From Enterococcus dongliensis (lineage in GTDB: Bacteria; Bacillota; Bacilli; Lactobacillales; Enterococcaceae): a DNA stretch of 64,000 nucleotides. Positions 32,245 through 43,642 of the stretch are shown piece after piece. Made by a program: the position numbers and the translations under genes. Numbering within the stretch: the stretch's first letter is position 1; each line of letters begins with the position of its first letter. The notes under the pieces were generated by a model that was not told the DNA's origin, ran no database searches, and saw only the letters and a program-made list of their open reading frames with translations. The stretch covers positions 1 to 64,000 of the forward strand of contig NZ_BJDQ01000002.1 of the NCBI RefSeq assembly GCF_005405225.1, given 5' to 3'.

Positions 32245-32284
32245 CCAAAAAAAAATTAGAAAACCTTAACTAAGATTTTCTAAT
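32245..32284 (-). terminator. Terminator of the aro operon
   Basis: On the minus strand ATTAGAAAATCTT pairs with AAGGTTTTCTAAT, and nine T's follow. The pheA stop codon (32270-32272) lies inside the stem. Confidence 0.88.
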
Positions 32285-33118
32285 CTTTGGTATATAAGTG
32301 GGATAATTACCGATCAATGTTACCGTGAATCTCTGCTCTTTTAACCGTTGCAGCACTTTTTGCAGTTTTTCCTCTTCAGGAGTTTCAAGATCGATAATAA
32401 AAAAGTATTCTCCCAGTTTCGTTTTTTGAGTTCGCGATTCAATTTTGGTTAAGTTGATTTTTTCAGCTGAAAAGATAGCCAGACATTTGTACAGTGCTCC
32501 AGGATGATCTGAATCTAAATCAAACAAAATAGTTGCTTTCTTTTTTTTCTGAGGCAATGCTTTTGTTAATGGTTGTGTTCCTAAGACCCAAAAACGTGTC
32601 TCATTTTCTTTGACTGACTGGATATTTTCTTTCACAATCGTTAAGCCAAATTGTTTGGCCGCAGTTTTTGAACCGATTGCAGCATATTTTTTTTCGGGAT
32701 GATCGGCTACTTTTTTGGCGCCTTGTGCAGTGGAACCGATTTGTTCTATATCGACAGTTGGAAAATGATTCAATAAAAAGACTTGTGATTGTGCCAGTGC
32801 CTGAGGATGACTACAGATCAATTCAATCTCTTTCCAAGAATCAGCATGATCAGGATGGACCATCAGTTGTTGTTGAATCGGTAGGACGATTTCAGCTTGG
32901 ATCGTTGGCAATGTTTGGAAAATCAAATCCAATGTCGGCAAGACCGAACCTTCAATCGTATTTTCAATCGGTACAATACAATAATCCAACGTACCTTTTC
33001 TCTGTTCTTCAAGCAATGCTGTCAAAGACTCATACGGAAACAATTCACGCTCTTTGAAAAAATTCACCGCAGCGCTATAGGTAAATGACCCTTTTGGTCC
33101 TAAATAACCCACTTTCAT
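32270..33118 (-). CDS. pheA: Prephenate dehydratase
   Basis: A 282-residue enzyme turning prephenate to phenylpyruvate, the Phe branch. Catalytic-domain motifs are VGYLGPKGSFTYSAA at the start, VPIENTIEGSV near residue 50 and the C-terminal ETRFWVLG. An ACT domain follows (HPGALYKCLAIFSAEKINLT, then KIESRT), so feedback by phenylalanine is expected. It is the last gene of the operon, its ATG sharing one base with the aroK stop (TAATG). No chorismate mutase domain is fused, and none is seen in this window. Confidence 0.94.
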   Translation of the reverse strand: MKVGYLGPKGSFTYSAAVNFFKERELFPYESLTALLEEQRKGTLDYCIVPIENTIEGSVLPTLDLIFQTLPTIQAEIVLPIQQQLMVHPDHADSWKEIELICSHPQALAQSQVFLLNHFPTVDIEQIGSTAQGAKKVADHPEKKYAAIGSKTAAKQFGLTIVKENIQSVKENETRFWVLGTQPLTKALPQKKKKATILFDLDSDHPGALYKCLAIFSAEKINLTKIESRTQKTKLGEYFFIIDLETPEEEKLQKVLQRLKEQRFTVTLIGNYPTYIPKIRKS

Positions 33119-33621
33119 TAAGAAGCGACCTGTTGTATGATTTCAGCGACGATCTCTTGTGGGGATTTTCCCGAAGTATCCACCGTGATCTTTGCTAATT
33201 TTTCGTAGAGTTTCTCTCTTGAAAAGAATAACCGTTTCAAATCCCCATCGTCATTTTTGATTGCTAGGGGGCGAATATTTACTTTATCTTCCCGAATTCG
33301 TTGGACTAAGATATTTGCATGAGCTTTCAAATAAACGACTAATTTATCTGATAATTCTTTTTGATTTTCCGGTTGTAAAATCACACCGCCGCCTGTGGCA
33401 ATGATGGAATCTTCATTTAATGCTTCTTTTAAAAGATTTGTCTCATGTTCACGAAATGAGGCTTCGCCATGTTCTTCAAAATATTCACTAATTGGTTGAC
33501 CGATTCGTTCAACTAAAACATCATCCATATCCACTACACGGGTATTTAATGCTGCGGCAAGTTCTTTACTGACAGTAGTTTTTCCGGCTCCCATAAAACC
33601 GATTAAGACGATTGATTCCAT
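33118..33621 (-). CDS. aroK: Shikimate kinase
   Basis: A 167-residue P-loop kinase phosphorylating shikimate at O3. It has Walker A GFMGAGKTT at 8-16, the shikimate-binding Asp in VVDMDD near residue 32, an Arg in SFREHE near 58 and the GGG loop IATGGGVIL near 76-84. Length is normal. It is translationally coupled on both sides: one shared base with aroA upstream and with pheA downstream. Confidence 0.94.
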   Translation of the reverse strand: MESIVLIGFMGAGKTTVSKELAAALNTRVVDMDDVLVERIGQPISEYFEEHGEASFREHETNLLKEALNEDSIIATGGGVILQPENQKELSDKLVVYLKAHANILVQRIREDKVNIRPLAIKNDDGDLKRLFFSREKLYEKLAKITVDTSGKSPQEIVAEIIQQVAS

Positions 33622-34904
33622 TAAGCATCCTCCTTTATTAATAAGCTTAAATCACTGAAAAAGTTTGGATAAGAAATATTGATAGCCTCAGGTTTATGTA
33701 GCTCAACTGTTTCTTCCGTTAACAATGCCGCAATCTGCAGCATCATTCCGATTCGATGATCACCATGACTGTTGACAACACCACCATGCAAAGGTGTCGG
33801 CCCATGAATAATCAATCCATCCTCTGTTGTTTCAATCTTAGCCCCTAGCTTATTCAATTCCTGTGCTGTCGCATCGATGCGATTTGTTTCTTTTACTTTT
33901 AATTCTTGGGCATTAGAGATAACCGTTGTCCCGTTCGCTTGGGTCGCGGCTAATGCAACGATCGGCAGCTCATCGATTAAGCGTGGAATAATTTCTCCTC
34001 CAATTGTTGTTGCCTTCAACACAGCTGATTGGATCAATAAATCTGCTGCTTGGTTTTGTGGATCATAAGCTAACTGTTGGATGTTTGCGCCCATTTCAGT
34101 CAATACATCCAAAATACCTGTACGTGTTGGATTGACACCGACATGATTTAAGCGCAGATTACTATTTGGCAATAAACTGGCAGCTACAAGATAAAAAGCA
34201 GCAGAAGAAATATCGCCAGGAACTGTCACTTCTTGTCCAATGAGTTGTTGCCTTCCAGGTACGGTGATTTTTTTATCTTCTACAACGATCTTTCCACCAA
34301 ATTGCTTGATCATCTCTTCTGTATGGTTGCGTGAGTTTTCTTTTTCAATAATCGTTGTTTCACCCTCTGCTTGCAAAGCGGCAAAAAGAATCGCTGATTT
34401 CACTTGTGCACTTGCAATCGGCATTTCGTAGGTGATTGCTGATAAATGACTGCCTTGCACTTCAATCGGTGGAAATTCACTGCCATCACTTCCGCTCAGC
34501 TTTCCTCCCATCTCTCGCAATGGTCCCATGACTCTTTCCATTGGTCGGCGATTTAATGAGGTATCTCCTGCTATTTTTGAAGAAAAAGATTGCCCTGCTA
34601 AAATTCCTAATATTAGACGCAATGTCGTCCCAGAATTTCCAGCATCTAAACGTTCCTTAGGTGCTTGCAACTGGTTGAACCCTGCTCCTTCGACGATAAT
34701 ATCTTGTCCATCTTCGTTAATCGTCACACCTAGTGCCTTAAAGACCGCAATCGTACTCAAACAATCTTCCGCTCTTAAAAAATTGTGAATCGTTGTTCTT
34801 CCCTGACTGATTGCACCAAACATAATGCTGCGATGCGAAATCGATTTATCTGCCGGTACAGTGAGTGCACCATTGACCCCTGAATTTGTTTTCAATAGTT
34901 TCAT
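33621..34904 (-). CDS. aroA: 5-enolpyruvylshikimate-3-phosphate synthase
   Basis: A 427-residue enzyme joining shikimate-3-phosphate and PEP. Motifs are [15 protein letters not shown] near the N-terminus, [12 protein letters not shown] near 87, [13 protein letters not shown] near 117 and [13 protein letters not shown] near 164. The RPMxRV and SAQVK pattern resembles class II enzymes of Gram-positive bacteria, which tolerate glyphosate better than class I; that property is inferred. It follows tyrA after three bases, with AAGGAG upstream of its ATG. Confidence 0.94.
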
Positions 34905-34907
34905 TTG

Positions 34908-35981
34908 TTAACTCCTTCTACAACAATGGAATTCTGCTTCTTCAATTACTAATTGCCCTTTTTCCAAGTCTGCTTGATTCTTAAATGAGAGTTCCAAGAC
35001 TCCAAAAATATCTTCACGTGTTTCCTGGATCTTTAAGTTAATAATAGAAATCCCCGCTTGGCTTAACAGTGTCATAACAGTTGCGATAGCTCCCGCAGTA
35101 TCCGGGATGTTGACATAAAGATCATAAAAAGCTGGAATAACTCCCCGATCTTTTATCGGCAGGTGATCCCGAGAATGTTTCGCCTGACTAAAAAAATCAT
35201 AGATTGCTGATTGATCTTGCTCCAATAAATTTTCACAGATAGTTGAAATCTCTTTTTGCCATTTACCCAATAGGTCTAATAAAATTGAACGATTGGTCAA
35301 TAAAATATCTGTCCACATCTGCGGATCCGATGAGGCGATTCGTGTAATATCTCGGAATCCTCCTGCTGCTAGTTGTGTTGCGCGAGGATATTCCTCCGTT
35401 AAATGATCGCTCATTCTAACTAGTCCAGATGCTACAATATGAGGTAAGTGACTCAATACGCCCACAATCTCATCATGAGACTCAGGTTCAAGAACGACAA
35501 ATTTTGCCCGAGTCGGTGCCAATAATTCGATTAATGGTGTCACTTCGACTCCTTCTGGCGGTGTCAAAATATAATAAGCTTCTTCAAAAAGATTAGGATT
35601 TTCTGCTTTGACACCCGATTTATGGGATCCCGCCATTGGGTGACCTCCAATAAATGTAAAAGGGAAATCTTGCGCTTGTTTCATGACTTCATTTTTAGTA
35701 CTGCCAGTATCTGTAACAATCACAGTTTTTTTCAATGGAAGTTGTGCTAATTCATGTAAGTAGTGCAACGTAGAACGAACGGGTACGGCTAAAATAATAA
35801 CATCCATCTCAGGTGCTCTTTCAATAGAAGTAATTTGATCAACCAGTTTGACTTCGTGAGCAATCTTCCGGGTTTCCAATGAATGATCCCAACCAAACAA
35901 CTCAATTGCTGGATTTTTGATGGCTCTACAAAGTGACGCACCGATTAGACCAATTCCTAAGACGAACACTCGCTTTTTCAT
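34908..35981 (-). CDS. tyrA: Prephenate dehydrogenase
   Basis: A 357-residue enzyme converting prephenate to 4-hydroxyphenylpyruvate, the Tyr branch. It has the dinucleotide motif VLGIGLIGASL at 7-17, an acidic residue after strand two (GWDHSLE) favouring NAD, and HPMAGSHKSG near residue 117 with the active-site His. A C-terminal ACT domain (LYVNIPDTAGAIATVMTLLS onward, about 288-357) suggests tyrosine feedback. GAGAGAGGG precedes the start, and the gap to aroC is 16 bases. Confidence 0.94.
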   Translation of the reverse strand: MKKRVFVLGIGLIGASLCRAIKNPAIELFGWDHSLETRKIAHEVKLVDQITSIERAPEMDVIILAVPVRSTLHYLHELAQLPLKKTVIVTDTGSTKNEVMKQAQDFPFTFIGGHPMAGSHKSGVKAENPNLFEEAYYILTPPEGVEVTPLIELLAPTRAKFVVLEPESHDEIVGVLSHLPHIVASGLVRMSDHLTEEYPRATQLAAGGFRDITRIASSDPQMWTDILLTNRSILLDLLGKWQKEISTICENLLEQDQSAIYDFFSQAKHSRDHLPIKDRGVIPAFYDLYVNIPDTAGAIATVMTLLSQAGISIINLKIQETREDIFGVLELSFKNQADLEKGQLVIEEAEFHCCRRS

Positions 35982-35997
35982 AGACGTACCCTCTCTC

Positions 35998-37158
35998 TTA
36001 AAAATTCCTGATTGCTTCCCGATATGCTTTTACTGCTTGTTGTAACTCATCCATCGTATCTGACGAGAATTTTTCTAAAACTTCTTCTGCTAATACTGTT
36101 GCAACGACATTTTCTGCAACGACAGAAGCTGCTGGAACAGCTGTACTATCAGAACGCTCAACGCTTGCCTTGTAGGGTTCTTTTGTATCGATATCAACAC
36201 TCATAAGTGGTTTATATAAGGTCGGGATTGGCTTCATTACACCACGCACGATGATTTGCTCTCCATTTGTCATGCCGCCTTCAAAGCCGCCAAGATGATT
36301 ACTTGTCCGTTTATATCCATCATCCCAAATGATTTCATCCATGACTTTTGAACCTGGTTGACGAGCTGCTTCAAAACCGATTCCAAATTCAACTCCCTTA
36401 AAGGCGTTTATACTCAATATGCTTTGTGCAATCTTCCCATCAAGCTTATGATCCCATTGGACATAACTGCCAAGACCTGCAGGGATGTTGTCTGTTCGGA
36501 CTTCTACGACTCCTCCAATTGTATCGCCTGCTTTTTTCGTTTGATCGATCAGTTTTTTGACAGACTCTTCAACTGATCCATCCACCATATTGACTTCTGA
36601 AATAGCTGTTTTAGCTTGGATATCCTTAACACTTAATTTTTCTGGAATACTTGCTTCGATGCCGCCCAGTATCACCACGTGGCTAGCAATCTCAATTTCT
36701 ACAGCAGCTAAAATCTGCTTAGCAATCGCTCCGACAGCTACTCGCATCGTCGTTTCACGAGCAGAAGAACGTTCTAAAACATTTCTTAAGTCACTATGAT
36801 GATATTTCATTCCGCCAACTAAATCGGCATGTCCTGGACGTGGTTTTGCCACTCGGCGTAATTTTTGTTCCTTTTCAGAAACAGCTTCAACAGACATAAC
36901 TTTCTGCCAATTTTTCCAATCACGATTTTCGACAATCATAGTGATTGGCGAGCCCAATGTCTGACCGTGACGTACGCCAGAAGTGATGCGCACTTGATCT
37001 TTTTCGATCTTCATGCGGCCGCCACGACCATAGCCGCCCTGTCTTCTCGCCAACTCATGATTAATCGCTTCAACAGACAGTGTCAATCCTGCTGGAATTC
37101 CTTCAATGATCGTCGTTAGTTCTGGCCCATGTGATTCGCCAGCTGTTAAGTAACGCAT
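35998..37158 (-). CDS. aroC: Chorismate synthase
   Basis: A 386-residue FMN-dependent enzyme making chorismate. The family signatures are GESHGPELT at 7-15, [30 protein letters not shown] near 105-134 (signature with the catalytic His) and [11 protein letters not shown] near 288-298. Full length. The start lies three bases after aroB, with GGGAAG upstream. Confidence 0.95.
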
Positions 37159-37161
37159 AAG

Positions 37162-38220
37162 CTACTTCCCTTCTATTAAATAGTCTTTGATTTCTGTCAA
37201 TTTGATTTTTTGAATAAATGCTTTTCCGATCTCTTTTAATAAGACGATATTCAGACTTTCTCCTCGTGCCTTTTTATCGTGTGTGATCGCAGCATAGAAT
37301 TTTTCAGCTTCCCAAGGTTGATAGTCGATCGGCAATTGGTACTTTTGATTCATCGCGATGATTTCTTGTGTGATACCAACCGGAGAAAGGTGTTTTTTTT
37401 CGGCTGTTTGCGATATTTTTATCATGCCGATTGCTACTGCTTCGCCATGGCTGATCTTGCCGTATCCGGCGGTATTTTCAATCGCATGTCCAATAGTATG
37501 TCCGAAATTTAATAGTAAACGTGCGCCGTTATCAAATTCATCTTCTTCGACAGCTGCTTTTTTTACTTGTAAGGCTTTTAAGATTATCGCTTCACTGTGA
37601 GCTAAAAGGTCTTGAACCCCGGTTAATTTTTCAAGATCTTGCCATAATGAAGAATCACTGATAGCACCGCATTTGATGATTTCTGCAATACCTTCACGAA
37701 TTCGAAGTTCAGGTAAGGTATTTAATGTTTCCGGATCAATCAAAACTCCGTCAGGCTGAGCGAATGTACCAATCATATTTTTTGCTTTACTTGAATTTAC
37801 CGCTGTTTTTCCACCTATACTTGAATCAACTTGTGCTAATAAAGAAGTCGGGATTTGAACAAACGCGATGCCTCGCATATAGGTAGAGGCGACAAAACTA
37901 GCTAGGTCGCCAACGACACCACCGCCTAAGGCAATGACCGCGTCACTGCGGGTAAAATGCTGATCCGCCAAAAAATCATAAAGAGTATTTGCCATATCTA
38001 GCGATTTGCTGTTCTCACCTGCTGGAATAACGTAATGAGCAACCTCATAATCAGTTAATTGTTGACAAATCTTCTCGCCATAAATAGGAAATACATGATC
38101 ATCACTAATAATAGCGATTTTTTTATTTTGCCACAGTGAAGCAATCCATTCACCTACAGATTCTAATGCATGACGCTTTACAACGATTTCGTAACTTTTT
38201 TCTGATAAAACAATTTCCAT
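37162..38220 (-). CDS. aroB: 3-dehydroquinate synthase
   Basis: A 352-residue NAD- and metal-dependent enzyme. It has the cofactor loop GGGVVGDLASFVASTYMRGI near residue 97 and the Zn-ligand motifs RLLLNFGHTIGHAIE near 233 and the later HGEAVAIGM near 255. It is the third enzyme gene of the operon. The 92-base gap to aroF upstream contains a strong hairpin, the only sizeable gap inside the aro operon. Confidence 0.95.
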   Translation of the reverse strand: MEIVLSEKSYEIVVKRHALESVGEWIASLWQNKKIAIISDDHVFPIYGEKICQQLTDYEVAHYVIPAGENSKSLDMANTLYDFLADQHFTRSDAVIALGGGVVGDLASFVASTYMRGIAFVQIPTSLLAQVDSSIGGKTAVNSSKAKNMIGTFAQPDGVLIDPETLNTLPELRIREGIAEIIKCGAISDSSLWQDLEKLTGVQDLLAHSEAIILKALQVKKAAVEEDEFDNGARLLLNFGHTIGHAIENTAGYGKISHGEAVAIGMIKISQTAEKKHLSPVGITQEIIAMNQKYQLPIDYQPWEAEKFYAAITHDKKARGESLNIVLLKEIGKAFIQKIKLTEIKDYLIEGK

Positions 38221-38312: not shown

Positions 38313-39353
38313 TTAGATAAGTGACGGTTCTTTTGTTAGTTCGTTGATTTTTTTCATTGCTTCAACCATGATTTCGACTTCACTCATCATTTTCAAGTAA
38401 TTTTTTTCATTTAATGATTGTTCCCCATCAGACCAAGCATGTAATGGATCAGGATGGATCTCAACGATCATTCCATCAGCACCACTGGCAACTCCTGAAC
38501 GAGCCATTGGTCCTACTAGATCCCAAACACCTGTACCATGGCTTGGATCAACAATAATTGGGAAATGACTTAATTTTTTGATTAACGGTACAGCACTTAA
38601 ATCAAATGTATTCCGTGTGGCAGTTTCGTAAGTCCGAATTCCTCGTTCGATGAAAATAATGTTTGAATTGCCTTGTACCGCGATGTATTCAGCAGCATTC
38701 AACCATTCTTGGATTGTTCCAGAAATCCCACGTTTTAATCCAATTGGTTTGCCTGTTTTACCTACAGCTTCCAATAAACGGAAGTTTTGCATATTTCGTG
38801 CACCAATTTGAATAATATCTGCGTATTGACAAACAACATCGATATGCGCTTCATCCATTACTTCAGTAATTACTTTTAAGCCATGTGCATCTGCTGCTTT
38901 GCGCATGATTTTCAGACCTTCTTCACCTAATCCTTGGAAAGCGTATGGTGACGTACGTGGTTTGTAAGCTCCGCCACGCAAGATTTTTGCGCCGCCGGCT
39001 TTAGCCATACGTGCCGTCTCCATAATTTGTTCTTCCCCTTCGACAGAACAAGGACCAGCCATTGTAACAAAACTACCATCACCGATTTTTACCCCTTCAA
39101 CATCAACAACAGTATCTTGAGGATGAAATTCTCTGGATGTCAATTTGTAAGTATTTGAAATAGCGACTGCTCGTTCGACTACGCTGTATGCTTGGAATGG
39201 GACATTTTGGATGATTTTTGGATCGCCCAATAGACCAAGAACTAAACGGTCTTTTCCACGATTAATTTGAACACCTAATCCTTCTTCTTTGATTCTTGAT
39301 AAAATAGGTGATAACTCTGATTCTTGGATTCCTTTTTTTATAATTAAGATCAT
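38313..39353 (-). CDS. aroF: DAHP synthase, class I-beta
   Basis: A 346-residue enzyme condensing PEP and erythrose-4-phosphate, the entry step of the pathway. An N-terminal ferredoxin-like regulatory domain (about residues 1-75) precedes the barrel, as in Thermotoga DAHP synthase, where it binds Tyr/Phe. Barrel motifs are [13 protein letters not shown] near 105, [16 protein letters not shown] near 132 and DPSHGTG near 270. AAGGAAG eight bases before ATG 39353 outweighs the upstream in-frame GTG at 39371. Name aroF follows lactic acid bacterial use. Confidence 0.93.
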
Positions 39354-39375
39354 AATAATAACTTCCTTCACTTTT

Positions 39376-40251
39376 TTATTTTTTAATTTCTTTTTCTAAT
39401 AACGGTTGAATCAATGCTACTGGCATTTCTTTTCCTGTCCATAATTTAAATGCGGCAGCACCTTGATAAAGCAACATATCCAAGCCATTAACTGCGGTTG
39501 CGCCGATTGCTTTAGCAGCTGTTAATAGTTTTGTTTCACCAGGGTGATAAATCACATCAAAAACTGGCAAGTCTTTTCTTAACAATGCTTCAGACAAAGG
39601 CATTTGATCAGTTTTTGGTGCCATCCCGATTCTTGTGGCATTGATCAATAGACTGCTGGTTGCTAGAGCATCCGATAATTGTTGTTCCTTCGCTAAATCG
39701 TGCAACTGGATTTGACAATTAGTCTCTTCTGCAATCTCAGCAAGTTTTGGTTTGATTTTTTGATAAAACTCATCTTTGATGTTAAATACATCAATGGCTT
39801 TTACACCGTCAATCGCAGCTTGTGTGATAATCGCTGTTGCTGCACCGCCTGCACCAAGAATCGTCATTCTTTTGCCGATGATGTCAATCCCGTTTTGTTT
39901 TAAACTTTCCATACAGCCGATACCATCCGTATTATGTCCAATCAGTTTACCGTCATGATTTACGATTGTGTTGATTGCTCCAATCAATCGAGCGGCTTGA
40001 CTTAACTCATCGACATATTTGATAGCTTCCATCTTGTGAGGCATTGATAAATTGATTCCCAACATTTCAAGGTCACGAACGGCTTGGATACTTTCGCCAA
40101 GTCTTTTTGGCGGAACATCAAAACTTAGATAGACTGCATCGACCCCTGTTTCTTTAAATGATGTCGTATGCATCATCGGTGAAAAGCTGTGTCTTGCTGG
40201 CAATGCATACAATCCAGCTAATCGTGTCTTTCCTGAAATTTCATTTTCCAT
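39376..40251 (-). CDS. aroE: Shikimate dehydrogenase
   Basis: A 291-residue enzyme reducing 3-dehydroshikimate. The substrate-site motif LPARHSFSPMMH lies near residue 17, NLSMPHKMEAI near 67 holds the catalytic Lys, and NTDGIGCMESL near 109 and the NADP fold LGAGGAATAII near 132 follow. It could also use quinate (YdiB-like), but its place as first gene of a complete aro operon supports AroE. GGAGTGAGGG precedes the start. The attenuator described at 40312-40602 lies directly upstream. Confidence 0.93.
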   Translation of the reverse strand: MENEISGKTRLAGLYALPARHSFSPMMHTTSFKETGVDAVYLSFDVPPKRLGESIQAVRDLEMLGINLSMPHKMEAIKYVDELSQAARLIGAINTIVNHDGKLIGHNTDGIGCMESLKQNGIDIIGKRMTILGAGGAATAIITQAAIDGVKAIDVFNIKDEFYQKIKPKLAEIAEETNCQIQLHDLAKEQQLSDALATSSLLINATRIGMAPKTDQMPLSEALLRKDLPVFDVIYHPGETKLLTAAKAIGATAVNGLDMLLYQGAAAFKLWTGKEMPVALIQPLLEKEIKK

Positions 40252-40311
40252 CTTCCCTCACTCCTTCTTATAAAAATCGTCAACCTTCAATCAACACGTT
40301 AAATATGAAAA

Positions 40312-40342
40312 AGGCCCATTGTAGAAAATCTACAATGAGCCT
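40312..40342 (-). terminator. Second terminator (T2) of the aro leader
   Basis: On the minus strand AGGCTCATTGTAGA pairs with TCTACAATGGGCCT (one G-U pair), followed by T's, about 60 bases before aroE. Confidence 0.9.
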
Positions 40343-40359
40343 AGTCTCTCAAAAAATCC

Positions 40360-40396
40360 TAAAGAAAAAGCCACTATAGATTTTCATCTATGTGGC
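40360..40396 (-). terminator. First terminator (T1) of the aro leader
   Basis: On the minus strand GCCACATAGAT pairs with ATCTATAGTGGC (one bulged A) around GAAA, then TTTTTCTTT. Its 5' arm can instead pair with the upstream antiterminator segment 40421-40437. Confidence 0.88.
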
Positions 40397-40474
40397 ATTA
40401 AGTCATACTTAATATCTCTAGCCATCATAGATACAAACTGGTATCGTCTGCATCCATGAAACATGAATACAAAC
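40397..40474 (-). promoter_or_regulatory. Switching region of the aro attenuator
   Basis: Segment A (40462-40474) begins right after the leader-peptide stop codon. Segment B contains GATACC (40440-40445). Segment C (40421-40437, TTTGTATCTATGATGGC) can pair with B through GTATC/GATAC, or with the 5' arm of terminator T1 as an antiterminator (TCTATGaTGGC with GCCACATAGA, one bulge). A:B pairing here is only about five pairs. I infer that ribosome position on the leader peptide selects between these states. No T-box sequence is present. Confidence 0.75.
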
Positions 40475-40537
40475 CTATCTAAAATAGCTAAAGTAATAAT
40501 TATTCAGTTGTGTGTGCGTACTCTTATTCTTATTCAT
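40475..40537 (-). CDS. Aromatic leader peptide of the aro operon
   Basis: A 20-residue open reading frame with ATG at 40537 behind GGAG (eight-base spacing) and stop TAG at 40475-40477. The peptide ends NNYYFSYFR, so five of seven residues before the Arg are Tyr or Phe and there is no Trp. Such a run of codons for pathway end products just before an attenuator is the hallmark of ribosome-mediated attenuation. It should sense charged tRNA-Tyr and tRNA-Phe. Confidence 0.85.
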   Translation of the reverse strand: MNKNKSTHTQLNNYYFSYFR

Positions 40538-40573
40538 AAAGATCGCTCCAAACTGTGATTTAAGATTGAACTT

Positions 40574-40602
40574 AGTATAGTTTTGTTTCTGTAATAAGTC
40601 AA
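40574..40602 (-). promoter_or_regulatory. Promoter of the aro operon
   Basis: On the minus strand TTGACT (40602-40597), a 17-base spacer and TATACT (40579-40574). Transcription should start about 30 bases before the leader peptide's start codon. Confidence 0.82.
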
Positions 40603-40636
40603 CCTATTTTTTAATCTTTCTGTAAATATTTTTTAT

Positions 40637-41419
40637 TTACATCTCATTTACTGTTGTTTCACTTTCTTCAAAAAGCAAAAATAGATCGGTCAATGATAAC
40701 TGTTTCTTCGCTTCACCACGGATGTCTTTGATGATCTCTCCTTTTTCCATAACGATTACGCGATCACCATAATGCAAGGCATCTTCCATCTTATGGGTGA
40801 CCATCAAACAAGTCAGATTCTCTTCTTTGATTCGCTGGTCCGTTAATTTCATCAATTGTTTTGCCGTTTTAGGATCAAGTGCAGCTGTATGTTCATCCAA
40901 TAATAATAAATCTGGTTGGGTAATGGTCGCCATCAGCAAACTCAACGCCTGTCTTTGTCCTCCAGAAAGAAATCCAGTAGGCGTATCTAAATGATTTTCT
41001 AAGCCGTTGCCAGTTAGACGACACAATTCGCGATACAGTTCTTTTTTTTGATTGAGCTGACGTTGACGCAATCGCCGTTTTTGTCCGCGTTTTTCAGCCA
41101 AGCCCAAATTCTCAGCCACTGTTAAACGAGGAGCAGTCCCCATTTTAGGATCTTGAAAGACACGAGCGATTGAAGACGCGCGTTGCTCTTCAGAAAGCTT
41201 CGTTAGATCCTTTCCCATTACTGAGACAATTCCGCTATCTAATTGTAAATTACCAGAAATACTATTAAAAAGTGTACTTTTCCCTGCACCATTCCCGCCT
41301 AAAATTGTGACAAATTCTCCAGGGGCAATCGTCAGATCTACTTGATTTAAGATCTTGCGTTTATCGTTGATTCCATTGCTGATTGTCTTACTAGCCTGTT
41401 TTACTTCTAAGGCATTCAT
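40637..41419 (-). CDS. trpZ: Tryptophan-type ABC transporter ATPase
   Basis: A 260-residue ATPase. Walker A GGNGAGKST lies near residues 39-47, signature FLSGGQRQAL near 154, Walker B LLLLDEH near 175 (His follows the catalytic Glu, as in this subfamily) and the switch His in MVTHKM near 208. It energises the TrpY permease encoded just upstream. It ends 35 bases before the aro promoter. A small stem without a T-tract lies between, so some read-through into the aro leader is possible. Confidence 0.82.
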   Translation of the reverse strand: MNALEVKQASKTISNGINDKRKILNQVDLTIAPGEFVTILGGNGAGKSTLFNSISGNLQLDSGIVSVMGKDLTKLSEEQRASSIARVFQDPKMGTAPRLTVAENLGLAEKRGQKRRLRQRQLNQKKELYRELCRLTGNGLENHLDTPTGFLSGGQRQALSLLMATITQPDLLLLDEHTAALDPKTAKQLMKLTDQRIKEENLTCLMVTHKMEDALHYGDRVIVMEKGEIIKDIRGEAKKQLSLTDLFLLFEESETTVNEM

Positions 41420-42374: not shown

Positions 42375-43388
42375 TTATTCTCCTTTAACTACTTCGGCTT
42401 CTTCTTTGATGTTTGCTGGAATCGTAATACCTAACTCTTTTGCTTTTTCTTCATTGATAATCATGTCGCCATAATCGATTACATTTACTGGTGTATCGGC
42501 TGGCGTTGATTTTCCACTTAAAACAGCAGCTGCCATTTTTCCAGTCTCAACTCCTAGATCAAATTGATTTTGTCCGACTGTTGCAATCCCACCTTCTTTG
42601 ACCATGTTGTCAACAGAAACAAAGACTGGTTTTTTTGCTTTATCAGATTCACTGATTAATGTTTGGAATGCACTAGCGATAGTGTTGTCTTGCGGGATAT
42701 ATAAGAAATCTGTTTCTTTACAAGCTTGCTGTGTAATCGTCGCAATTTCATTACTTGAAGAGATTGCATATTTTTTTACAGTATAGCCTACTGCAGCTGC
42801 TTTCTTTTCTGCTCGTTCAATCTGTGATTTCGAATTTTCTTCAGATGATGAATAGATCATCCCAACTGTTTTTGCCTTTGGAAAGAGTTCTTTTGCCATA
42901 TCGATTTGTTGATCAACTGGTGTCAAATTATTTACCCCAGTGACGTTTCCAGCTGGTTTTTTCAAATTCTTAACTAAGCCGGCGCTGACAGGGTCACTGA
43001 TTGCTCCCATGATGATCGGCGTATCATTTGTTGCATTTGCTAAAGCTTTTGCTGCTGGTGTTGCGATTCCGACTAATACATCTGATTTTTTTTCTAATAA
43101 TTGCTGACTCATACTATTTAATTTGCTTTGATCACCTTGACCATTTAAAAATTCAACTTTGATATTTTTCCCATCTTCGTAACCTTCTTTTTTTAGTCCT
43201 TCAATCACACCGTCTTTAATCTGATCTAATGATGGGTGGCTGATGAATTGTAAAATCCCGACTGTTTTTACTTCTGTCTTTTTATCTGTAGCAGCATCGG
43301 TTTGACGCGACCCCATTTGATAAGCGAATACTCCAATTAAAACAACTGCTAATGCGATGATTGAACCAATAATCCCTTTATTTTTCAT
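42375..43388 (-). CDS. trpX: Tryptophan-type ABC solute-binding protein
   Basis: A 337-residue extracytoplasmic binding protein of the ABC_sub_bind (PF04392) family. A hydrophobic N-terminal segment (residues 5-24) anchors or exports it; there is no Cys lipobox, so it is probably membrane-tethered by an uncleaved signal. VKTVGILQFISHPSLD, VGIATPAAKALAN, MGAISDPVSAGLV and YIPQDNTIASA are family motifs. The trpXYZ assignment rests on family, gene order and the Trp leader peptide upstream. Tyr could also be carried, as this family is annotated as Trp/Tyr. Confidence 0.82.
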   Translation of the reverse strand: MKNKGIIGSIIALAVVLIGVFAYQMGSRQTDAATDKKTEVKTVGILQFISHPSLDQIKDGVIEGLKKEGYEDGKNIKVEFLNGQGDQSKLNSMSQQLLEKKSDVLVGIATPAAKALANATNDTPIIMGAISDPVSAGLVKNLKKPAGNVTGVNNLTPVDQQIDMAKELFPKAKTVGMIYSSSEENSKSQIERAEKKAAAVGYTVKKYAISSSNEIATITQQACKETDFLYIPQDNTIASAFQTLISESDKAKKPVFVSVDNMVKEGGIATVGQNQFDLGVETGKMAAAVLSGKSTPADTPVNVIDYGDMIINEEKAKELGITIPANIKEEAEVVKGE

Positions 43389-43463: not shown

Positions 43464-43498
43464 AAAAAACAAAAACCGCATAGATAGTCTCTATGCGG
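43464..43498 (-). terminator. First terminator (T1) of the trpX leader
   Basis: On the minus strand CCGCATAGA pairs with TCTATGCGG around GACTA, then TTTTTGTTTTTTT. Its 5' arm can instead pair with segment C at 43522-43533. Confidence 0.9.
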
Positions 43499-43521
43499 GA
43501 ATAAGCATGAAAAAATATCCA

Positions 43522-43585
43522 GCATAGATACAAAATTTAGAAGTTGTCTAAACGTTGTATCTATGAGTGAATCCATAAATACAAC
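43522..43585 (-). promoter_or_regulatory. Switching region of the trpX attenuator
   Basis: Segment A GTTGTAT (43579-43585) directly follows the leader-peptide stop codon. Segment B GATACAAC (43554-43561) pairs with A (seven pairs) or with C. Segment C TTGTATCTATGC (43522-43533) pairs with B or with the 5' arm of T1. A ribosome stalled at either Trp codon should leave A free, allowing A:B and the antiterminator C:T1 arm. A ribosome at the stop codon covers A, so B:C and T1 form. This is the classical attenuation logic, inferred from pairing only. Confidence 0.8.
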
Positions 43586-43642
43586 TTATCTACGCCAGTT
43601 TTGCCAGCTATTCAATTGATCAGATAAGTTTGCATGTCTCAT
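43586..43642 (-). CDS. Tryptophan leader peptide of trpXYZ
   Basis: An 18-residue open reading frame, ATG at 43642 behind AAGGAG, stop TAA at 43586-43588. It ends NSWQNWRR, with two Trp codons at positions 13 and 16. Trp is rare in proteins, so two in an 18-codon frame directly before an attenuator is strong evidence for Trp sensing. The stop codon abuts the first pairing segment. Confidence 0.87.
   Translation of the reverse strand: MRHANLSDQLNSWQNWRR

Follow-up and report, generated by a model that had tools for sequence, protein, structure and literature searches.

A predicted Tyr/Phe leader-peptide attenuator upstream of an enterococcal aro operon and its likely place in a re-targetable Lactobacillales family

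Proteobacterial trp, phe and his attenuators carry a short leader open reading frame (ORF) with codons for the end product, and the position of the ribosome chooses between terminator and antiterminator. For the aromatic amino acid genes of Gram-positive bacteria, the mechanisms usually named are T-boxes, TRAP and repressors. The element described here lies in front of an aro operon in a 64,000 nt stretch of DNA (‘the window’, meaning the whole stretch analyzed) and shares the six-segment logic of the proteobacterial his-type attenuators (B:C and D:E against C:D and E:F); we know of no sequence likeness to the proteobacterial trp, phe and his attenuators. It differs from them in a longer chain (segments 0–7), in an untranslated state that would be kept off because the codons pair with segment 3, and in an additional relay hairpin or second terminator.

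Leader-peptide attenuation has likewise been described in Gram-positive bacteria for the Firmicutes His attenuators (Naville and Gautheret 2010, PMC2965389; Rodionov et al. 2022, PMC9413887), but these concern histidine genes and Bacillus, Eubacteriales and Erysipelotrichales; no Tyr/Phe/Trp case in Lactobacillales is named in the available portions of the two articles. The F/Y uORFs of Stav et al. 2019 (PMC6429828) are predicted, as is the element here, to control shikimate genes through Phe/Tyr codons. That study covered five genomes, none of them from Lactobacillales, and its Clostridium novyi motifs also occur in Bacilli; an overlap of the present family with its two shikimate uORFs is possible. 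Control by a uORF was also predicted for uORFC-13-1 upstream of Acholeplasma aroF (Brewer et al. 2021, PMC8632094), a motif described as occurring only in Acholeplasma and environmental sequences. The RNA family of our element has been catalogued as a small RNA, RF02863 or sRNA_2410, on the basis of an E. faecium Aus0004 transcript of 195 nt by RNA-seq with two transcripts on Northern blots (Sinel et al. 2017, PMC5593968); in a word search of the main text of that article ‘aroE’, ‘leader’ and ‘attenuat’ were absent. The trpB motif RF04312 (Narunsky et al. 2024, PMC11109978) has the part formed by helix 2:3 and the terminator in common with the RF02863 element, but it differs in its Trp instead of Tyr/Phe codons and its shorter chain, and it was published as a strong riboswitch candidate, with a protein factor or a classic attenuator left possible; it is also reported from Fusobacteria. 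In the literature on leader peptides, attenuation, aromatic genes of enterococci and their relatives, sRNA_2410 and the trpB motif, supplements aside, we found no description of the Lactobacillales family as an attenuator, of RF02863 or RF04312 as attenuators, of the 5:6 relay or of the codon helix 0:3. Two details look new: the domino relay via a hairpin, which is a non-terminator in the transporter copies, and the helix between leader codons and antiterminator.

The element upstream of aroE is in all probability a transcription attenuator in which a translating ribosome senses the supply of charged tRNA-Tyr and tRNA-Phe, an interpretation supported by computation. We computed the elements of the locus, their conservation and covariation, their association with aromatic genes and the fit of the modelled read-through window to the codons. 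An earlier note, made from the letters alone, had claimed such an attenuator with a promoter TTGACT-N17-TATACT, a GGAG, a 20-codon frame ending NNYYFSYFR and a stop codon, an antiterminator strand at 40421–40437 and an alternative terminator. The promoter is present at 40602–40597 and 40579–40574 on the minus strand, GGAG was found inside the Shine-Dalgarno sequence at 40549–40544, and the frame is the ATG...TAG ORF at 40537–40475; the antiterminator strand, at 40421–40438, can pair with the 5' arm of T1, and a second terminator was located at 40342–40312. Beyond these claims, the element belongs to RF02863, a known RNA that Rfam labels as an sRNA, a Trp sibling (RF04312) lies in the same window, and the architecture is longer, with eight segments and a relay helix between both hairpins. 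The features of the locus are listed below with their basis; gene names are those of the matched NCBIfam families.

40597..40602, minus strand: -35 hexamer TTGACT (pattern scan)
40574..40579, minus strand: -10 hexamer TATACT, spacer 17 nt (pattern scan)
40544..40549, minus strand: Shine-Dalgarno sequence GGAGCG of the leader ORF (sequence)
40475..40537, minus strand: leader ORF MNKNKSTHTQLNNYYFSYFR, ATG...TAG, 20 codons and stop (sequence and relatives)
40481..40498, minus strand: regulatory codons Tyr-Tyr-Phe-Ser-Tyr-Phe (TAT TAC TTT AGC TAT TTT; codon table and modelled read-through window)
40298..40491, minus strand: Rfam RF02863 sRNA_2410 match, 71.6 bits (gathering score 61)
40475..40492, minus strand: segment 0, codons TTTAGCTATTTTAGATAG; can pair with segment 3 if free of ribosomes
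40462..40474, minus strand: segment 1 (GTTTGTATTCATG), immediately 3' of the stop codon
40446..40458, minus strand: segment 2 (CATGGATGCAGAC), partner 1 or 3
40421..40438, minus strand: segment 3 (GTTTGTATCTATGATGGC), partner 0, 2 or 4; antiterminator strand
40386..40396, minus strand: segment 4, 5' arm of the first hairpin or terminator T1
40370..40384, minus strand: segment 5, 3' arm of T1 and loop-side bases, partner 4 or 6; U-run from 40369
40329..40342, minus strand: segment 6, 5' arm of the second terminator T2; 5:6 pairing may reach 40325
40312..40325, minus strand: segment 7, 3' arm of T2, then U-run
40342–40312, minus strand: second terminator T2 (pattern scan and segmentation)
39376..40251, minus strand: aroE (shikimate dehydrogenase), with which the presumed operon begins
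38313–39371, minus strand: aroF (DAHP synthase)
37162–38220, minus strand: aroB (352 aa)
35998–37158, minus strand: aroC
34908–35981, minus strand: tyrA
33621–34904, minus strand: aroA
33118–33621, minus strand: aroK
32270–33118, minus strand: pheA

By pattern scan alone promoter-like sites (4 versus 3.8 in shuffles) and terminators (1 versus 0.5) occur at chance level; T1, the stem of which has a bulge, is absent from the terminator scan. The elements become significant through comparison with relatives. A promoter-like site (at least 10/12) lies 5' of 105 of the 114 distinct Tyr/Phe leaders, against 5.5% in mononucleotide shuffles, and TATACT occurs at most 80 nt upstream in 80 of 115 Tyr/Phe leaders. 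In the proposed mechanism transcription would start at this promoter and the leader would be translated. A ribosome at the stop codon would cover segment 1; 2:3, 4:5 and 6:7 would form and transcription would end at T1 or T2. A ribosome held at a Tyr or Phe codon would cover segment 0 and leave segment 1 free, and 1:2, 3:4 and 5:6 would form; 3:4 and 5:6 would then occupy the 5' arms of both terminators and RNA polymerase would enter aroE-pheA. When there is no translation, 1:2 would form and the bare codons of segment 0 would take segment 3, giving 4:5 and the terminators, with the operon off. As the physiological response, we infer that starvation for Tyr or Phe opens the operon.

Next, we analyzed the helices in one alignment of 67 sequences, using as control the partner slid by 1–3 columns. 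The helices 1:2, 2:3, 3:4 and 4:5, each of which excludes its neighbour, were paired in 95.6, 93.6, 94.2 and 93.0% of the cells, respectively, compared to 23–59% in the slid control. Compensatory changes had been named in the earlier note as a check, and pairs changed on both sides were observed in all four helices (9 in 1:2, 6 in 2:3, 2 in 3:4 and 5 in 4:5). For 3:4 the covariation is small, the two double-change pairs being equalled in 104 of 500 shuffles because the helix is nearly invariant, and its cognate and swapped energies are nearly equal (z -1.6). The hairpin 6:7 with a U-run was found in 112 of the 113 segmented loci; seven of these 113 have no 1:2 hairpin adjoining the stop codon, and 2 of 115 loci could not be segmented. 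For the swap and scan counts, identical sequences were counted once and some RF02863 loci were left out: L205 (no leader ORF), L166 and L185 (unsegmented), the seven with a displaced 1:2 hairpin and one without 6:7.

The helix 5:6 carries the relay, and here a simpler attenuator has to be weighed in which T1 and T2 act as two independent hairpins and 5:6, without a role of its own, is a by-product of T2 having copied T1. The arms of T1 and T2 are alike, so that a duplication would supply the complementarity for free, and in the window both 4:5 and 6:7 carry a U-run, which makes this copy one with two terminators in series. Counted after the 4:5 core (the longest stem hides or adds runs and gives 34 of 113), a U-run occurs in 31 of 111 loci, with L150 and L151 unplaced, and in 28 of the 38 copies before AroE (22 of 32), AroF (4 of 4) and AroC (2 of 2). 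However, it occurs in only 1 of the 67 copies before a substrate-binding protein. By this criterion 4:5 is not an intrinsic terminator in the transporter copies; the recognized terminator is 6:7, and without a U-run at 4:5 the leader can reach it only via 5:6. The energies also stand against a by-product. Over 95 distinct pairs, 5:6 has a mean of -11.1 kcal/mol, with 87% at -9 or better, compared to -5.0 and 6.5% with 119 unrelated terminators. Within the family, cognate partners reach -11.2 versus -8.1 for swapped ones (z -11), and swaps within the two gene classes, with relatedness left in, give z -7.1 and -4.4; related sequences inflate such z-scores, and we therefore place weight on the effect sizes and the within-class tests. 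Anchored on the core, 5:6 shows both-sided changes at four of five positions (of 93: A-U to U-A in 4, G-C to A-U in 18, U-A to C-G in 4 and G-C to A-U in 2). Taken together, we regard two independent hairpins as unlikely, and the relay through 5:6 is kept in the attenuator reading.

Segment 3 has a third partner. Helix 0:3 is the outer helix of the Rfam consensus, in which the codons before and at the stop face the antiterminator strand. Swapping partners gives z -5.0 overall, -3.8 in the transporter class and -1.8, which is weak, in the aro class. The pairing reads TTATGGCTATTATAGATA opposite TATCTATGATGGCTATAA in L132, CTACGGCTA opposite TGGCTGTAG in L273, CTACAGCTA opposite TAGCTGTGG in L276 and AATAACCAT opposite ATGGTTATT in L357; judged from these sequences, the predicted helix changes together with the codons. 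It also offers a reason why the Ser, Arg and stop codons are kept although they are not end-product codons.

A leader ORF was found at 115 of the 116 fetched RF02863 loci, in all cases with ATG and in 109 with a Shine-Dalgarno match of at least 4, where the choice among candidate ORFs favoured ATG and aromatic residues. RF02863 itself contains 17 nt of the leader, its match in the window starting within the ORF, and for this reason we built a leaderless model, R1, on 67 loci from the sequence 3' of the stop codon only. R1 is blind to the letters of the leader but not to relatedness, because it was trained on loci found with RF02863. At E ≤ 0.01 it matched 182 of 295 Lactobacillales genomes. 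Among the matches listed we fetched 70 R1 loci, 30 of which include many that coincide with RF02863 loci, while 40 were chosen as new (at least 3 of them are also RF02863 matches). In 38 of the 40 new loci the match follows an ATG ORF that has a Shine-Dalgarno sequence and Tyr/Phe at 3 or more of the last 9 codons (shuffles 0.2%), and 23 of the 40 have at least 5 (shuffles 0.03%). For L215, L238 and L272 no Shine-Dalgarno-preceded leader was found by the script. In the codon table of the Tyr/Phe leaders the aromatic codons stand mostly at -7, -6, -5, -3 and -2. All 45 distinct leaders before AroE, AroF or AroC have both Tyr and Phe, whereas Phe without Tyr in the last 12 residues is found in eight distinct leaders before a substrate-binding protein (L142, L167, L172, L176, L201, L254, L271 and L274) and in one before an unassigned ORF. 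Such Phe-only leaders suggest, as far as the sequence goes, Phe-specific transporters.

We then modelled the effect of ribosome position by stepwise folding, in which the RNA folds as it emerges, formed helices are kept and a ribosome covering 30 nt is placed at each codon. This is a crude stand-in for kinetics and is blind to codon identity; it was used because equilibrium folding without transcription order gave only a partial switch for the group, with a clear one for the window copy. Read-through was defined as 3:4 and 5:6 both formed, ‘terminated’ in the scan as merely 3:4 unformed. For A-site positions -7 to -2 the model gave read-through in 65, 75, 90, 92, 92 and 92 of 99 distinct loci, respectively; the counts were 0–5 at -16 to -8, 49 at -1, 17 at the stop and 1 without translation. 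The predicted read-through window thus roughly coincides with the Tyr/Phe codons, in line with the attenuator that the earlier note had proposed. In 33 of the 99 loci we varied the leading edge between 10 and 16 nt, which shifts the read-through window by roughly one codon; at 10 nt, the shortest footprint, 17 of these 33 loci are predicted to read through even at the stop. In a stricter run of 105 loci, a stall at any of the last three aromatic codons gave read-through in 94–98 and at the fourth-last in 79 (18 unclear, 8 terminated); the stop state gave 67 terminated, 17 read-through and 21 unclear, and the untranslated state 75, 1 and 29, respectively. For the window copy the predicted read-through window, -9 to -1, is broader than the aromatic codons and takes in two Asn codons and an Arg codon (-9, -8 and -1). 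Before segment 7 emerges, 5:6 competes here with 4:5 (6.5 versus 4.5 pairs in the stop state, 6.8 versus 4.2 untranslated), so that the off-states of this copy would rest on the earlier-acting T1.

We also observed a possible pairing at the start of the leader. In the window, 40549–40555 in the Shine-Dalgarno stretch can pair with 40505–40510 in the QLN codons (CAGTTTG with CAACTG), and the equivalent at L003 is TTAGTT with AACTAA. QLN codons are frequent in Tyr/Phe and Trp leaders alike, and their duplex with the Shine-Dalgarno stretch has a mean of -6.2, where other stretches of the leader give -3.2 to -5.7; swapping the partners weakens the energy from -6.19 to -4.97. The preservation of QLN in many leaders of both kinds, despite its having no end-product codon, would suit a nascent-peptide sensor of the TnaC type, in which QLNNxYFSYFR arrests in the exit tunnel on free Tyr or Phe. 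However, Ser, Arg and stop are explained by 0:3 and QLN in part by the Shine-Dalgarno pairing, and the model window fits the codons without any peptide effect. Moreover, Tyr and Phe interchange at -7, -6 and -3, and FFFSFF and YFYGYF versions occur; in the f3 family the leaders of three loci end in TYFYGYFR or TYFYSYF, so that the exact peptide varies while the aromatic codons stay. We thus consider a nascent-peptide sensor very improbable and return to codon-dependent stalling.

The distribution of the element was analyzed next. Twelve Enterococcus records were compared with AroE of the window. Identity is 82–90% for 11 of them, including E. viikkiensis, E. avium, E. raffinosus, E. pingfangensis, E. 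xiangfangensis and E. hermanniensis, and 58% for the other one, which by sequence places the organism near the E. avium group; on this basis we take its family and order to be Enterococcaceae and Lactobacillales. Of the 80 AroE loci listed, all 12 from Enterococcus have core and leader (11 leaders by script, that of E. malodoratus read by eye), as had been asked of relatives in the earlier note; no core was found upstream of AroE in the 68 others, which come from clostridia, lactobacilli, streptococci and others at 40–51% identity. At E ≤ 0.001, RF02863 was found in 101 of 105 Enterococcaceae genomes (16 of 17 genera, 95 genomes above the gathering score) and in 215 of 395 Lactobacillales genomes (52 of 80 genera, 99 above the gathering score), but in none of 14 control genomes. 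Frame, helices and Tyr/Phe codons are kept far beyond the genus for which the note had claimed an attenuator. The genome of the window has three copies, the second before a substrate-binding protein with the leader MLNTTNTQLNNRYYFSYFR and the third before a short AroB-like protein with the leader MTQLISRQLNNYYFSYFR. At L003 (1713–2453) the product encoded behind a Tyr/Phe attenuator has 246 aa, far fewer than the operon AroB (352 aa), and matches the 3-dehydroquinate synthase N-terminal family PF01761. At L237 and L238 (genome G209, contig C17) the Tyr/Phe chassis occurs twice about 1.3 kb apart, each before a substrate-binding protein; L238 is one of the loci where the script found no leader.

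RF02863 copies precede aro genes or an ABC substrate-binding protein. We clustered the downstream proteins of 242 loci with an ORF, drawn from the 116 RF02863, 90 RF04312 and 70 R1 loci fetched among the matches listed. Comparing the Tyr/Phe models with RF04312, the clusters are substrate-binding protein (98 versus 77), AroE (43 versus 0), AroF (4 versus 0), AroC (2 versus 0) and TrpB-like (0 versus 6), and 12 singletons include PheA- and AroK-like proteins behind Tyr/Phe leaders. Pfam supported DAHP synthase, chorismate synthase, prephenate dehydratase and shikimate kinase with one member each, and four TrpB-like members matched the PLP-enzyme family that includes TrpB. At L138 (523–2700) a Tyr/Phe leader stands before a 726-aa protein with three matched SBP_bac_3 (family-3 solute-binding) stretches, which sets it apart from the typical substrate-binding protein. 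We sampled 90 substrate-binding proteins for diversity, 45 from 73 and 45 from 93, and in their tree a single branch with support 100/99 separates the two leader types (1 change versus about 30 in shuffles), each of which occurs in seven families; the labels follow the model that found the locus, and what the tree shows is therefore a match of RNA type to protein clade. Two tested proteins of the Tyr/Phe clade scored 335 and 340 against a TrpX cut-off of 390, compared to 459 for TrpX of the window.

The location of the copies bears on the Rfam name. A trans-acting small RNA would agree with the detection by RNA-seq and the two Northern transcripts in E. faecium Aus0004 (PMC5593968), but the genes behind the loci read belong, with few exceptions, to the aromatic pathway or encode transporters, the RNA itself contains a conserved ORF and terminators, and attenuators release short RNAs as well; we give the small-RNA reading hardly any credence. 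Table 2 of PMC5593968 has sRNA_2410 up 2.3-fold under daptomycin by RNA-seq and 4.1-fold by qPCR (adjusted P 0.0335), while the text describes its level as mostly uniform. If sRNA_2410 is an attenuated leader, this rise would report promoter or termination rather than an sRNA response.

The Trp sibling lies about 3 kb from the Tyr/Phe attenuator in the window:

43586..43642, minus strand: Trp leader ORF MRHANLSDQLNSWQNWRR with its stop codon (sequence)
43464..43567, minus strand: Trp attenuator core, Rfam RF04312 trpB motif, 63.2 bits (gathering score 59)
42375..43388, minus strand: trpX, tryptophan ABC transporter substrate-binding protein, 459 bits (cut-off 390)

Trp attenuator (43464–43642), trpX and transporter genes stand directly before the Tyr/Phe attenuator (40298–40602) and the aro operon, and both families are about 3 kb apart in other genomes as well, e.g. 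on contig C2 of G019 and contig C1 of G043. The Tyr/Phe leader of the window scores 39.6 bits with RF04312, under its gathering score of 59. Since the RF04312 model starts 3' of the leader ORF, it provides a blind test of the codons. A Shine-Dalgarno-preceded ATG ORF is present at the expected place in 87 of 90 RF04312 loci (dinucleotide shuffles 11.7%), and 83 of 90 have Trp within the last 9 codons (dinucleotide shuffles 1.0%), 46 with two or more Trp. The seven failing loci include L081, L102 and L114, where Trp is more than 9 codons from the stop, L058 with a GTG start and L106, which has a Trp ORF but no clear Shine-Dalgarno sequence; L110 and L117 have no such Trp leader. The automatic segmentation of the Trp loci is poor, and the scan built on it (84 of 88 loci run), with read-through predicted at 61 of 135 Trp codons versus 384 of 1144 others, is therefore not relied on; a match as tight as in the Tyr/Phe loci was not seen. 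With hand-set segments, the window Trp copy is predicted to read through at -4 and -3 (Trp at -3) but not at Trp -6. RF04312 was found in 211 of 395 Lactobacillales genomes, 60 of them above the gathering score, with a weak match in Lactococcus lactis among the 14 controls. We give a riboswitch or T-box, in which the RNA itself binds the amino acid or tRNA, a negligible chance. In its favour, the core is strongly conserved and Narunsky et al. (PMC11109978) put the related trpB motif forward as a strong riboswitch candidate. Against it, the T-box covariance model gave no match up to E = 5 in 40240–40640 nor at the gathering score in the window, in agreement with the earlier note, pairing with segments 0, 2 and 4 accounts for the core TATCTATGATGGCTA, and leader ORFs with fitting codons occur at 38 of the 40 Tyr/Phe loci and 83 of the 90 Trp loci.

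Across the phylum, RF04312 occurred in 5 of 398 genomes drawn, two of them in the order (one being that of the window) and three in others. Of the three loci outside the order the leader of L357 is convincing, those of L358 and L359 are not. L357, the genome of which is from the phylum but from a different family, combines this chassis with a Phe leader, MNYINNFNLKIQIFFNNHFR, and its codons and segment 3 are altered together; the gene behind it (1400–2997) encodes a sodium:neurotransmitter symporter (SNF) family protein (PF00209). NSS transporters have been described under Trp and Phe T-boxes (Wels et al. 2008, PMC2494555).

We also consider a wider reading likely: RF02863 and RF04312 would be two specificities of one re-targetable attenuator family of the Lactobacillales, with an occasional copy outside. 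In this family the RNA chassis would be kept and the codons switched between Tyr and Phe, Phe only, and Trp to suit the gene behind; the domino chain would run via a hairpin that is often not a terminator, and the codons would double as a strand of the off-switch helix and predict the ABC transporter substrate, Tyr/Phe for the sister clade of TrpX and Phe alone for some. A leader-peptide family present throughout the Lactobacillales would add a mechanism for Gram-positive aromatic genes, and two Rfam families, one listed as an sRNA and one as a riboswitch candidate, would be reassigned to one mechanism. For RNA regulation, the relay is an idea that can be put to the test, and the leader codons would become a substrate prediction for a transporter family.
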